A DNA stretch of 64,000 nucleotides from Heliophilum fasciatum (GCF_004341395.1 NZ_SLXT01000018.1:1-64000), one strand, 5' to 3'. Numbered from the stretch's first letter, positions 49,393 to 53,077 are shown. Notes: generated by a model not told the origin, from the sequence alone. Translations and numbers: made by a program.

Positions 49393-50508
49393 TTATCTTG
49401 ATTTTTTAGCGAGAAATCTTGCTTCGATGAGTTCCGCAAGGCCAACAGCGTCATCGAGCGACAAGCAAGGAACACCTATGTCCCAAGGAATATCGGAAGC
49501 AATCGCGATCAACTCATCGGCTGGGCAAAGCAATTCTTGGCAGACGCAGGACCGAAAGACTTCAATCTTCGGTTTGTTGCCCCGCTTAAAACCTTCGGTA
49601 ATGATGATATCGACATTTTGTATACGCGATAGGATTTCATCCAGGGAAGGTTCTTGCTGCACCTTTTCGATCATCGTGATTTTGGACGGTGACGCGATGA
49701 CGACCACATCAGCGCCGGCTTGGGCGTGGCGCCAGCTATCTTTGCCGGGGTGGTCCACGTCGTAGTCGTGAGCACTGTGTTTAAGCGTGGCCACGCGGTA
49801 GCCTCTTTTTTTTAACTCCGGCAACAGTTTCTCTACCAAGGTAGTTTTCCCCGAATTGGATGTACCGACGATCGAAATGACCGGGATGGGTGATTGTAGC
49901 TCTTTTTCGGCAAGCTCCCGGGCCCGGCGCAGGTCAGCGGGGGTGTTCACATTATAAAAGATTTTTTCGAGGTCACCGCAATCACCGATTTCACACTCGT
50001 CTACATAGCGCAACGGAACTTGCCGGCAAAAATCAGTCATTTTACGCATGTCATGTAGCAGGCATTGCTCCAGCGCAGCCAAGCAGTTTTTCGTGTACAC
50101 CGCAAAAAGCGGTTGCAGATACTTCCCTTGGCGCGGGACTACACCATCATAGCCTGGGGCCATGGCCAGCAGCTTTTGCGCTAAACCCCGGTGGATGAAG
50201 GGCAGATCACAGGCCGTGATCAAATTGTAAAAATGCGGCGAAAGGGTGAGTCCGGCGTGGATACCGCTGAGCGGGCCTTGCCCAGGGATGATGTCCGTCG
50301 TAATCTGCACATCGAGGTGCCGATAAGAAGCAGGATCATTCGTCACGACGATGATTTCATCAACAATCGGCCGTAGTTCTTCGATGATCGCTGCGATGAT
50401 CGATTGATGGCCCACAGGGAGGAAGGCTTTGTTGGTACCCATCCTTGAGCTTTGGCCGCCGGCAAGGATAATGGCTGCTGCTTTCATGGCAACTGTCATG
50501 GCGCTCAT
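49393..50508 (-). CDS. mobAB: MobA-MobB fusion: molybdenum cofactor guanylyltransferase
   Basis: 371 residues. MobA domain (about 8-205) adds GMP to molybdopterin, with IILAGGQSSRMGTNK and ITACDLPF. MobB domain (about 208-371) is a P-loop GTPase with GTSNSGKTT at 215-222, LKHSAHDYDVDHPGKDSWRH and IITEGFKRG. Start ATG 50508 overlaps the stop of the upstream ImmA/IrrE gene (ATGA); ATG 50487 just before KAAAIILAGG is another candidate. No molybdoenzyme or other moa/moe gene is near. The coupling to a stress peptidase is odd. Confidence 0.9.
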   Translation of the reverse strand: MSAMTVAMKAAAIILAGGQSSRMGTNKAFLPVGHQSIIAAIIEELRPIVDEIIVVTNDPASYRHLDVQITTDIIPGQGPLSGIHAGLTLSPHFYNLITACDLPFIHRGLAQKLLAMAPGYDGVVPRQGKYLQPLFAVYTKNCLAALEQCLLHDMRKMTDFCRQVPLRYVDECEIGDCGDLEKIFYNVNTPADLRRARELAEKELQSPIPVISIVGTSNSGKTTLVEKLLPELKKRGYRVATLKHSAHDYDVDHPGKDSWRHAQAGADVVVIASPSKITMIEKVQQEPSLDEILSRIQNVDIIITEGFKRGNKPKIEVFRSCVCQELLCPADELIAIASDIPWDIGVPCLSLDDAVGLAELIEARFLAKKSR

Positions 50509-51011
50509 CGCACCCATGTGCCAAGCCACTGTTCGATCGGTAACGTCAGCGGCAAATGATGGCGAATACAAAATTCCCGATAGGATTCGCTCGATCCCGG
50601 CAAATCACCTTGCGTTAATAAAGACACCGCAAAAATGTTCGCTTGGCGTTCGAATTTGCTCGAGGCAAAGAACGTGTGATCCTCAATAAAGTAGTAGCCC
50701 ATACCCCGGTGGAGAATATCGTGCCCTAACTCATGGGCGCAGGTAAAGCGCTGAACGTCATAGGGATCGGCTTCATTGATGACGATAAACCGGCGCTGCA
50801 AAACAGCATAATAAAAGCCGTGAACTTCTGACGGCAACGATTTATAGCGTACCAAGATACCTAACTGGTCGGCCAGGGTAAAAGGACAGTTGGTCCCATA
50901 TGTTTTGATGAGCGTAAGAACATCGTTCTTGATGTCTACCCCCTCCAAAGAAGGATGATTGATTACGAAGCCGGTGACGGCTTGCGTTTGTTCATTTGCT
51001 TGGCTTCCCAA
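50505..51011 (-). CDS. ImmA/IrrE-family zinc metallopeptidase
   Basis: 168 residues. HELGH at 93-97 with the third ligand Glu121 in FERQANIFAVSLL is the COG2856 active site. Relatives (ImmA of ICEBs1, IrrE/PprI of Deinococcus) cleave an XRE repressor when DNA is damaged. It directly follows an XRE gene, with which its frame overlaps by 49 nt. The TTG start at 51011 is uncertain: GGAGGGG at about 50940-50946 favours a start around VDIKNDV, but no standard codon is there. Confidence 0.9.
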   Translation of the reverse strand: MGSQANEQTQAVTGFVINHPSLEGVDIKNDVLTLIKTYGTNCPFTLADQLGILVRYKSLPSEVHGFYYAVLQRRFIVINEADPYDVQRFTCAHELGHDILHRGMGYYFIEDHTFFASSKFERQANIFAVSLLTQGDLPGSSESYREFCIRHHLPLTLPIEQWLGTWVR

Positions 51012-51610
51012 AACAAACCGATCATGACACCTTGAATGCGTTGTTTGTCTTCATCAGAAAGAGGCACACCGTTAAACAATAACTCTTCCCGTTCCAGAAT
51101 CATCAGCAGATCCTTGGGCTTCGGCGCATGAGGACTGTAGCCATTGGGATCGTCTGTATAGCCGGCAAGATAATCGGCCGTTACGCCGATCATTTCTGCC
51201 AGCTTATATAACGTGGAGATCCCCGGCAGTGATGGCGGTTCCGTCATCAATTGCTGCAGATAGCCCAGCGTAACCTTACACTCCACCGATGCTTCTTCGG
51301 GAGTAAGCGAAACAGCAGCAAGGCCGGCACGGAGCCGAGAAGCAAAAACCGATACATCGGGTCGGGCTTCATGGGTGGAAGCGGCATTACCATGATCGCC
51401 AAGGTGCGGAGAATCGATACGGCCATAAAGATAATCAAGACTGACGTTTAACGTATTGACGAGCTTTAATAGTACATCTTTTCCCGGTTCACGTTTATCA
51501 CTTTCATAAAAAGAAATCGTTGATTCGCCAACACCAATAGCATCGGCCAACTCTTTTTGCGTTAAACCGGCTTTTTCGCGCATGGATCTAAGCTTTTTAC
51601 CAAACGTCAT
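50963..51610 (-). CDS. XRE-family repressor with two HTH domains
   Basis: 215 residues. First HTH at about 3-60 (LRSMREKAGLTQKELADAIGVGESTISFYESDKREPGKD). Second, more diverged HTH-like unit at about 88-150 (VSLTPEEASVECKVTLGYLQQL). Basic helical tail. Likely the target of the following metallopeptidase and the regulator of the divergent polymerase gene. ATG 51610 has AGGTGAT upstream; GTG 51619 would lie inside that box. Confidence 0.88.
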   Translation of the reverse strand: MTFGKKLRSMREKAGLTQKELADAIGVGESTISFYESDKREPGKDVLLKLVNTLNVSLDYLYGRIDSPHLGDHGNAASTHEARPDVSVFASRLRAGLAAVSLTPEEASVECKVTLGYLQQLMTEPPSLPGISTLYKLAEMIGVTADYLAGYTDDPNGYSPHAPKPKDLLMILEREELLFNGVPLSDEDKQRIQGVMIGLFWEAKQMNKRKPSPAS

Positions 51611-51627
51611 ACATATCACCTGACATC

Positions 51628-51655
51628 ATTATAACCTTGCCACCATACTTTTCAA
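51628..51655 (-). promoter_or_regulatory. Promoter of XRE-ImmA-MobAB operon
   Basis: On the minus strand TTGAAA (51655-51650) and a perfect TATAAT (51633-51628) are 16 bp apart. CCATA and TATGG (51643-51660) flank the -35 element as an inverted repeat, a possible operator of its own. Confidence 0.6.
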
Positions 51656-51697
51656 TATGGATAGCCCCATCATCGTAAAAAAACATGACAAAGTAGA

Positions 51698-51744
51698 AAG
51701 TTATCGAGATATAACTTGACGAAATGACAAGTTATAAGTATTCT
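51698..51744 (+). promoter_or_regulatory. Operator and promoter of Y-family polymerase
   Basis: Three related half-sites: AAGTTAT (51698-51704), ATAACTTG (51711-51718) and CAAGTTAT (51728-51735). The second and third form a perfect 8-bp inverted repeat with 9-bp spacer; the first and second form a 7-bp one with 6-bp spacer. TTGACG (51716-51721) and TATTCT (51739-51744), 17 bp apart, form a promoter whose -35 overlaps the middle half-site. A bound repressor would block it. The XRE protein is the obvious candidate. Confidence 0.65.
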
Positions 51745-51794
51745 TTGATCGGGTAAACTTTGCGTATCGCCAAGTCAAGCGCAGGTGATGAAAA

Positions 51795-52562
51795 ATGGCA
51801 CAGCCCATCCCGACCATTTTGCTGGCCGATATGAATACCTTTTATGCCAGCGTAGAAATCGCTCATAATCCCACTCTTCGCGGCAAGCCGGTCTTAGTTT
51901 GCGGTGATCCGGAACGGCGTCACGGCATCATTCTTGCTGCCTCGCGGGAAGCCAAGGCTTGTGGTGTCAAAACGGCCATGACCGTAGGAGAGGCCATCGC
52001 TTGTTGCCCGCGGGCGGTTTGTGTTCGGCCCCGCATGGCTACCTACATCAAAGCTGCACAAAAAATCCGACAGATCGCCCAGACGATCTCACCGGTGGTT
52101 GAACCCTACAGCATTGATGAACTTTTCATGGATGTTTCCCGCATGGAAAAAATCTGGCCATCGCCGGAAGCGGCGGCCCAAGCGTTCCAACGCCGCGTTA
52201 TGGACGAGGTAGGCGTCCCCTGTTCCGTCGGCATCGGCTCGAACAAATTCATGGCCAAGATGGCCTGTGATATTGAAGCGAAGAAAAAAGCCTCCGGGGT
52301 GGCCCTTTGGAACGATGCCGATATTCCCGTGAAACTGCACCCGCTACCGCTGCGGGAAATGTTTATGGTCGGCTCCAAAATGGAGCGCCACTTCAAAAAC
52401 ATGGGGTTGCTGACGATAGGCGACTTGGCTCGCTATCCGCTGCGTTTTTTGCAGCACCGTTTTGGCCGTAACGGTCTCATGTACCATCAATTGGCTTGGG
52501 GCAAGGACGATTCGCTGATTTTCCACCAATTAGGTTTAGTCAAAGACGATGGCTGGCGGTGA
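51795..52562 (+). CDS. Y-family DNA polymerase (UvrX/UmuC-like), N-terminal catalytic part
   Basis: 255 residues, then an in-frame TGA. Palm and fingers are intact: LADMNTFYASVE (metal Asp12) and PYSIDELFMDV (Asp108, Glu109), with SVGIGSNKFMAKMA and a thumb HhH region (LLTIGDLARYP). The frame ends soon after YHQLAWGKDDS, where a 13-codon imperfect duplicate (FHQLGLVKDDG) leads into the stop. The rest of the enzyme continues in the -1 frame from 52559. The two parts total 427 residues, normal for UvrX. Either a split gene, a frameshifted pseudogene or a sequence error. Confidence 0.85.
   Translation: MAQPIPTILLADMNTFYASVEIAHNPTLRGKPVLVCGDPERRHGIILAASREAKACGVKTAMTVGEAIACCPRAVCVRPRMATYIKAAQKIRQIAQTISPVVEPYSIDELFMDVSRMEKIWPSPEAAAQAFQRRVMDEVGVPCSVGIGSNKFMAKMACDIEAKKKASGVALWNDADIPVKLHPLPLREMFMVGSKMERHFKNMGLLTIGDLARYPLRFLQHRFGRNGLMYHQLAWGKDDSLIFHQLGLVKDDGWR
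52482..52559 (+). repeat. 39-bp imperfect tandem duplication in polymerase gene
   Basis: 52482-52520 and 52521-52559 are each 39 bp. Over the first 30 bp, 22 positions agree and most differences are silent or conservative (YHQLAWGKDD against FHQLGLVKDD). The last nine bases differ. The second unit ends exactly at the stop/restart junction. Confidence 0.75.
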
Positions 52563-53077
52563 ACAGTTACGATGAACACAGCCACGATGAACTCAAGAGC
52601 ATCGGTCACATGGCGACCTTACCTCGCGATTACCGCCACGCCAAAGACATTGAAACCGTTTTAATGGAACTAACCGATGAAGTCTGTCAGCGCGCGCGCA
52701 GTCACCACAAAGCCGGAAAAACCGTTACCGTCAGCGTCCGGCGCTATGATTTACGCTCCGGTTTTCACCGGCAATCATCCCTAGTGGCGCCGAGCAATTT
52801 GAGCTCCGTTATTTTCAAAAAAGCGAAGGCGATCTTTGAGCAACATTGGGATGGTCAGCCTGTGCGCAGCATCGGTGTCAGCATCTCGAACTTGCACGAC
52901 GATCAAGACATTCAACTGGAGCTATTTACGAATCTCGACAAAGAAGAGCGTATCAGCCGGGTGCTGGATCAGACCCATGCCCGTTTCGGTAAAACGGCTC
53001 TTTTGCGGGCTTCCGCTTTGACGACGGCAGGGATCAGCCGCGATCGCGCCACTAAAATCGGCGGTCATTACAAGTAA
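52559..53077 (+). CDS. Y-family DNA polymerase, C-terminal little-finger part
   Basis: 172 residues from GTG 52559, whose GTGA overlaps the stop of the catalytic part. KSIGHMATLPRDY is the segment that normally follows the thumb in UvrX-type polymerases. The rest is the little finger that binds DNA (RKAGKTVTVSVR-like strand, FKKAKAIFEQHW, SIGVSISNLHDDQDIQLELF). Reinitiation at the overlap could make a separate subunit. No strong ribosome-binding site is seen, so expression is uncertain. Confidence 0.75.
   Translation: MNSYDEHSHDELKSIGHMATLPRDYRHAKDIETVLMELTDEVCQRARSHHKAGKTVTVSVRRYDLRSGFHRQSSLVAPSNLSSVIFKKAKAIFEQHWDGQPVRSIGVSISNLHDDQDIQLELFTNLDKEERISRVLDQTHARFGKTALLRASALTTAGISRDRATKIGGHYK

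Follow-up and report, generated by a model that had tools for sequence, protein, structure and literature searches.

A divergent XRE-ImmA pair facing the Y-family polymerase gene of Heliophilum fasciatum: a possible in-place replacement of LexA control

Organisation of the locus

The window analysed here is a stretch of 64,000 nucleotides from Heliophilum fasciatum (GCF_004341395.1, NZ_SLXT01000018.1), contig 18 of the 73 that make up a 3.14-Mb draft genome with a completeness of 99.06%. Towards its right end lie the genes for an XRE-family repressor (xre), an ImmA/IrrE-type zinc metallopeptidase (immA), and a Y-family polymerase (polY). The xre and immA genes overlap and are both read leftward, polY is read rightward from 51795, and a spacer of 175 bp separates the two directions (Table 1). 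The initial annotation of this DNA, made before any database search, had described the pair as divergent from an error-prone polymerase, which the coordinates of the open reading frames (ORFs) and the Pfam assignment of the polymerase (IMS family) bear out.

Table 1. Features of the xre-immA/polY region (positions in the window)
Feature	Position	Strand	Basis and remarks
MobA-MobB fusion	49393..50487	-	Pfam NTP_transf_3 and MobB; likely ATG at 50487
ImmA/IrrE-type zinc metallopeptidase, 168 amino acids	51011-50505	-	Pfam Peptidase_M78, E 2e-16; overlaps xre 3' end
XRE-family repressor, ImmR-like, 218 amino acids	51619-50963	-	Pfam HTH_3, E 7e-25; one strong N-terminal helix-turn-helix (HTH)
xre promoter-like TTGAAA-16-TATAAT	51655-51628	-	Consensus scan, 11/12 matches
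Fourth, imperfect half-site AGGTTAT	51631-51637	-	Overlaps predicted xre -10
CATGACAA, putative remnant of heliobacterial polY promoter -35 region	51684..51691	+	Sole copy in the 64-kb window
Operator-like dyad AAGTTAT-N6-ATAACTT, two half-sites	51698-51704(+), 51711-51717(-)	both	Exact matches
Third AAGTTAT half-site	51729-51735	+	Forms with 51711-51717 a second dyad, TATAACTTG-N9-CAAGTTATA
Second candidate polY promoter TTGACG-17-TATTCT	51716..51744	+	9/12 consensus matches, near chance frequency; overlapped by half-sites
polY first part: palm, fingers, thumb, PRK03103/PolY2 type	51795..52562	+	Pfam IMS, 3e-47, and IMS_HHH_1; NCBIfam PRK03103.1
polY second part: little finger, other frame	52559..53077	+	Pfam IMS_C; mechanical ORF opens at TTG 52496

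The repressor and its peptidase

The HTH of the repressor is 52% identical to the DNA-binding domain of ImmR from ICEBs1 (7t8i; template-modelling (TM) score 0.93), and ICEBs1 ImmR is the top profile match of XRE in the PDB. The C-terminal segment of XRE, LLFNGVPLSDEDK...GLFWEAKQMNK, is conserved in L058 and L059 (phage partners of ImmA). The protein had initially been called a double-HTH regulator: the first HTH stands, and the second is plausible though unconfirmed, Pfam recognising the first alone. An AlphaFold model of XRE (mean confidence score, pLDDT, 67; low beyond about residue 75) is too weak to establish the second HTH, and equally too weak as proof of a DdrO-like C-terminal domain, which we have set aside.

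ImmA consists of a single Peptidase_M78 domain, without a GAF-like C-terminal domain, and its start codon is uncertain. The HELGH motif and distal ERQAN reported from the first inspection are there, and an alignment of 11 members shows no variation at the zinc residues H93, E94, H97, and E121; the gene next to xre encodes a COG2856 peptidase with HExxH and a third zinc ligand. Both fold and profile searches led to CapP, PprI, and IrrE, with CapP as the best fold match (TM 0.61). The suggested ImmR/ImmA kinship holds on both counts, the identity of the repressor's HTH to ICEBs1 ImmR and the matches of the peptidase to CapP and IrrE/PprI; judged by its proteins, xre-immA is a pair of the ImmR/ImmA kind. 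Those of the nearest ImmA relatives for which the gene context was read (L058, L059, L048) have genes of phage tails or of recombinases/integrases as neighbours.

Operator half-sites in the spacer

All three exact AAGTTAT copies that had been placed over the polymerase promoter region are confirmed. Among 20,000 dinucleotide-preserving shuffles of the spacer, 14 contained some 7-mer in three non-overlapping copies inside 40 bp, and no other place in the 64-kb window shows such clustering. When the genome was searched for the operator elsewhere, as had been proposed, AAGTTAT-N3-12-ATAACTT gave exactly one match (the reversed control pattern gave none), so that the dyad is unique to the polY-xre spacer. 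Allowing up to three mismatches yielded 111 sites genome-wide against 190 in the control. We infer that operators of XRE lie in the divergent spacer over the promoters of both polY and xre.

LexA and the polymerase promoter

In all seven heliobacterial orthologs the sequence ATGACA-N17-TATAAT, followed by tandem LexA-like boxes (among them GAACTGATGTTC and GAATATATGTTC), stands before polY or before a small gene preceding it, and the lexA genes of relatives carry similar boxes. The polY promoter of the window is devoid of such boxes, and the AAGTTAT half-sites occupy their place. The CATGACAA motif is found at position -111 relative to polY here, and at -103 and -104 in the two orthologs without the small gene. 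We read this as an exchange of operators on a partly retained polY promoter. The small gene itself, which precedes polY in five heliobacteria (for instance L052 5585-5941 and L054 5299-5727), encodes a NRLWQGSR.ILPEHR motif; by eye it resembles YolD, yet Pfam YolD gave no match, and that identity was dropped.

The LexA DNA-binding family PF01726 had no match in this genome, whereas the same search gave two or more for every one of five other heliobacterial genomes. The only proteins that a nine-row LexA profile retrieved here are S24 proteins, none of them with a LexA-type HTH, and GAACN4GTTC is not enriched genome-wide (41 sites, 50 in the control). The neighbourhood of sigK, where lexA is sited in a relative, is rearranged in H. 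fasciatum and hence provides a weak check of the absence of lexA. The LexA independence first proposed for this locus is supported by these comparisons: the lost LexA-like boxes, the retained -35 motif, and the failure to find LexA together give comparative support to a replacement of LexA.

Three further observations concern the same protein families. The PF01726 paralogs of the other heliobacteria lie, one, near a D-Ala-D-Ala ligase gene and, in some genomes, another near sigK/abrB. A 213-residue Peptidase_S24 protein without an HTH match is encoded directly after a UvrD-like helicase with an HSDR_N-type nuclease domain (G000:C1:201427-203890; L120 5428-7891), possibly forming with it a damage-sensing helicase operon. 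Finally, a 257-residue XRE-S24 repressor of the CI/HdiR type is encoded beside a superoxide-dismutase-like gene, sodA (G000:C2:43857-44630; L121 4858-5631); a TGCACA-N11-TGTGCA dyad lies upstream of its gene, and it is a candidate non-canonical LexA.

The split polymerase

The polymerase is the only member of the Y family in the genome. It groups with its heliobacterial counterparts in our tree (support 100/99), its first part being 65-71% identical to them, and judging from these relationships polY is vertically inherited and native to the lineage. The acidic motifs ADMN and SIDE of the IMS catalytic domain are present in the alignment. The claim that the output is a stand-alone mutagenic polymerase on the chromosome stands as to family and chromosomal location and fails as to a single intact ORF, for in this assembly palm, thumb, and little finger do not form one chain. 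The first frame terminates at TGA 52560-52562, overlapped by a GTG at 52559, and a coupled restart at this GTGA is possible; a programmed -1 shift was considered and discarded, as inspection by eye of the overlap revealed no standard slippery heptamer. All seven heliobacterial orthologs are intact (407-412 amino acids). By eye count, the linker from the WG to the KSIGH motif measures 92 nt here against 14 amino acids (42 nt) in the orthologs and is thus about 50 nt larger; its sequence, also read by eye, may reflect small duplications together with an indel of 1 nt. The second half is free of further stops, and the nonsynonymous and synonymous values (pN/pS) against G002 are 0.20/0.74 for the first half and 0.28/0.68 for the second, similar to those of intact pairs. 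As both halves look constrained, the break may be recent, bypassed, or an assembly error, and the polymerase output may be dead or a product in two pieces.

Genomic surroundings

The neighbouring genes have housekeeping functions (MobAB, an RND pump, RNase J, recA, and cobalamin genes). Neither integrase nor phage genes turned up when the ORF lists of the window were inspected and the nine nearest ORFs searched with Pfam, in line with the initial annotation. The likely ATG of mobAB lies on the same strand about 18 bp beyond the immA stop (window 50487-50505), and this molybdenum-cofactor gene may be co-transcribed with immA from the xre promoter.

The same layout in other Bacillota

Divergent XRE-ImmA/polY modules with a polymerase of a different clade occur also in viral contigs (L135-L140, L146); in L057, where a genome of the same class has one within an element that bears an integrase; and in chromosomes where housekeeping surroundings are visible (L187-L191, L194, L195), an integrase being near in L192. 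In L190 and L194 one frame each was recognised by tblastn only. The ImmA profile of one search included polymerase-linked ImmAs, and we draw no frequency from it. The polymerases of these modules (about 36% identity to that of the window) and their ImmAs each fall in a clade of their own; in the trees the window ImmA stands on a long branch apart from the polymerase-linked ImmAs. Forcing a single clade was rejected for the polymerase and for ImmA (approximately unbiased test, p below 1e-80), and with a single origin rejected for both proteins, the wiring arose at least twice. Several of the other modules carry repeated AACTTC/GAAGTT motifs in the spacer, and the fab gene context shared by L189 and L190 suggests vertical inheritance of these two. 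Three records with plasmid-borne polY relatives had no XRE-ImmA alongside.

Many polymerase-linked modules have, after immA, a small conserved ORF of about 90-115 residues with the signature KVYV...WEDG..Y.ID....KAGGQGDRYT (L135 2490-2834, L189 9325-9609, L190 9056-9340, L195 5717-5992, L057 7194-7463); it had no Pfam match where tested and is absent from the window. In the open-access papers searched we found no description of an ImmA and Y-family polymerase arrangement, and divergent XRE-ImmA/Y-polymerase modules, spread over several Bacillota families in phage and housekeeping contexts, seem to be undescribed there.

Proposed mechanism and alternatives

We consider it fairly probable that, at the polY promoter native to heliobacteria, LexA gave way to an immunity switch of the type found in phages and integrative and conjugative elements (ICEs), one that is released by DNA damage through ImmA. 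The ImmR-like XRE protein would bind the AAGTTAT half-sites, which cover the polY promoter and touch the -10 of xre, keeping polY off and xre-immA under autoregulation. By homology to CapP, PprI, and ICEBs1, DNA damage would activate ImmA via single-stranded DNA or RecA-linked signals, and the activated peptidase would cleave XRE, as in ICEBs1, TnSmu1, CapP, and PprI, and so free the polY promoter. In the sequenced strain the product would then be a polymerase in two pieces, through coupled restart at GTGA, or one recently inactivated.

Several facts weigh against this account. The polymerase ORF is broken by a frameshift in the sequenced strain, which speaks against a simple reading, as does the occurrence of the layout on other chromosomes and phage contigs; and the genome has a separate repressor of the XRE-S24 kind. 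The genome being a draft, lexA could sit in a gap, though this would require the loss of two paralogs from the assembly. In most relatives recA is without a clear LexA box, which leaves the polY and lexA promoters as the basis for assigning control to LexA. Near matches to the operator do not mark repair genes in this genome, and as they are fewer than in the control, with the best ones not at repair genes, we do not claim a wider regulon.

The frameshift bears on the alternative that polY is a recent pseudogene, which would leave the switch without its mutagenic output, xre-immA being kept by autoregulation or by read-on into mobAB. This is possible but on the unlikely side: the break affects the sole Y-family polymerase, intact in the seven orthologs, and the enlarged linker fits such decay, whereas the second half has gathered no further stop, its pN/pS resembles that of intact pairs, and both operators and promoter remnant are still in place. 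It is also compatible with the takeover of the polY promoter by the switch, as its latest step. That xre-immA should instead be the leftover of a decayed prophage or ICE, lying beside polY by chance and controlling nothing there, is suggested by the phage tail and recombinase/integrase neighbours of its nearest ImmA kin; the lack of such genes in the window, the operator cluster on a polY promoter whose LexA boxes are gone, and the independent recurrence of the divergent layout, which we count in favour of a switch, make it improbable.

Damage control of polY could also have passed to another self-cleaving repressor, the XRE-S24 protein near sodA, acting as a non-canonical LexA of the sort known from Bacteroidetes (PMC8565304). 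With HTH_3 and Peptidase_S24, this protein is the sole hit of the LexA profile to combine a DNA-binding domain with S24, but its own dyad is of the TGCACA/TGTGCA type rather than AAGTTAT, it has no convincing operator in common with polY, and we regard such a role as quite improbable. Least credible, and very improbable in our view, is a toxin-antitoxin-like pair instead of a switch. It is suggested by a faint NCBIfam resemblance to the spr1629 repressor/antitoxin family, at 29 and 37 bits far below the cut-off of 335; against it, TnSmu1 has a comparable ImmRA pair that showed no toxin-antitoxin behaviour (PMC10233336), and the position of the operators suits a regulator.

Taken at its fullest, the replacement of LexA by the switch would mean that in a heliobacterium without LexA the sole Y-family polymerase was re-wired where it stands, operators of a captured phage immunity switch taking the place of the LexA boxes. 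Within the Bacillota this would be a second, convergent origin of a polymerase under the control of repressor proteolysis, the polymerase perhaps consisting of two coupled chains; we hold this fuller version tentatively, with doubt prevailing. The ImmR/ImmA pair itself is of a known kind; what is apparently new is its use, in a genome where no LexA was detected, to take over a LexA-type polymerase promoter in place. If true, it would reveal a route out of LexA for a key mutagenesis gene, in which the promoter is kept, the operator exchanged, and the repressor supplied by a phage-type switch. As other Bacillota have built this layout from unrelated components, repressors released by a protease may be a frequent substitute for SOS control of inducible mutagenesis that has largely gone unrecognised and would escape screens based on LexA.

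Comparison with known systems

The DdrO/IrrE (PprI) system of Deinococcus likewise pairs a metallopeptidase with a repressor, is LexA-independent, and has its output on chromosomal repair genes, as is proposed here. However, it governs a multi-gene regulon through a shared operator, and IrrE has a GAF-like domain, whereas the heliobacterial locus has one local operator and an ImmA without that domain; the similarity is weaker for it, and because of this single operator and missing GAF domain we do not class the locus as a DdrO/IrrE regulon. CapH/CapP of the cyclic-oligonucleotide-based antiphage signalling (CBASS) operons shares with it the peptidase fold, and CapP is stimulated by single-stranded DNA (PMC10904395, PMC10233336). 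The output of CapH/CapP is an immune operon, the candidate output here a polymerase.

The modules of other Bacillota and phages (L057, L135-L140, L146, L187-L192, L194, L195) have the same three genes in the same divergent layout, and differ in the clades of both polymerase and ImmA. With the LexA-controlled polY genes of other heliobacteria the window gene shares descent (PolY2/PRK03103) and the -35 motif; those genes, in contrast, are intact, have LexA-like boxes, and have no adjoining XRE-ImmA. Similar in build are ICEBs1 and related ICEs and prophages (TnSmu1), in which, as here, XRE is followed by a short ImmA without GAF domain and the genes overlap or adjoin; operators lie in their divergent spacer, where H. 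fasciatum has its half-sites as candidate operators. The heliobacterial XRE is longer (218 residues), with a possible second HTH. A location on mobile elements is common for ImmR/ImmA pairs without being obligatory, and the present locus lies outside any mobile element seen: the pairs of the ICEBs1 type face transfer and excision genes, whereas the heliobacterial pair faces a native chromosomal polymerase.

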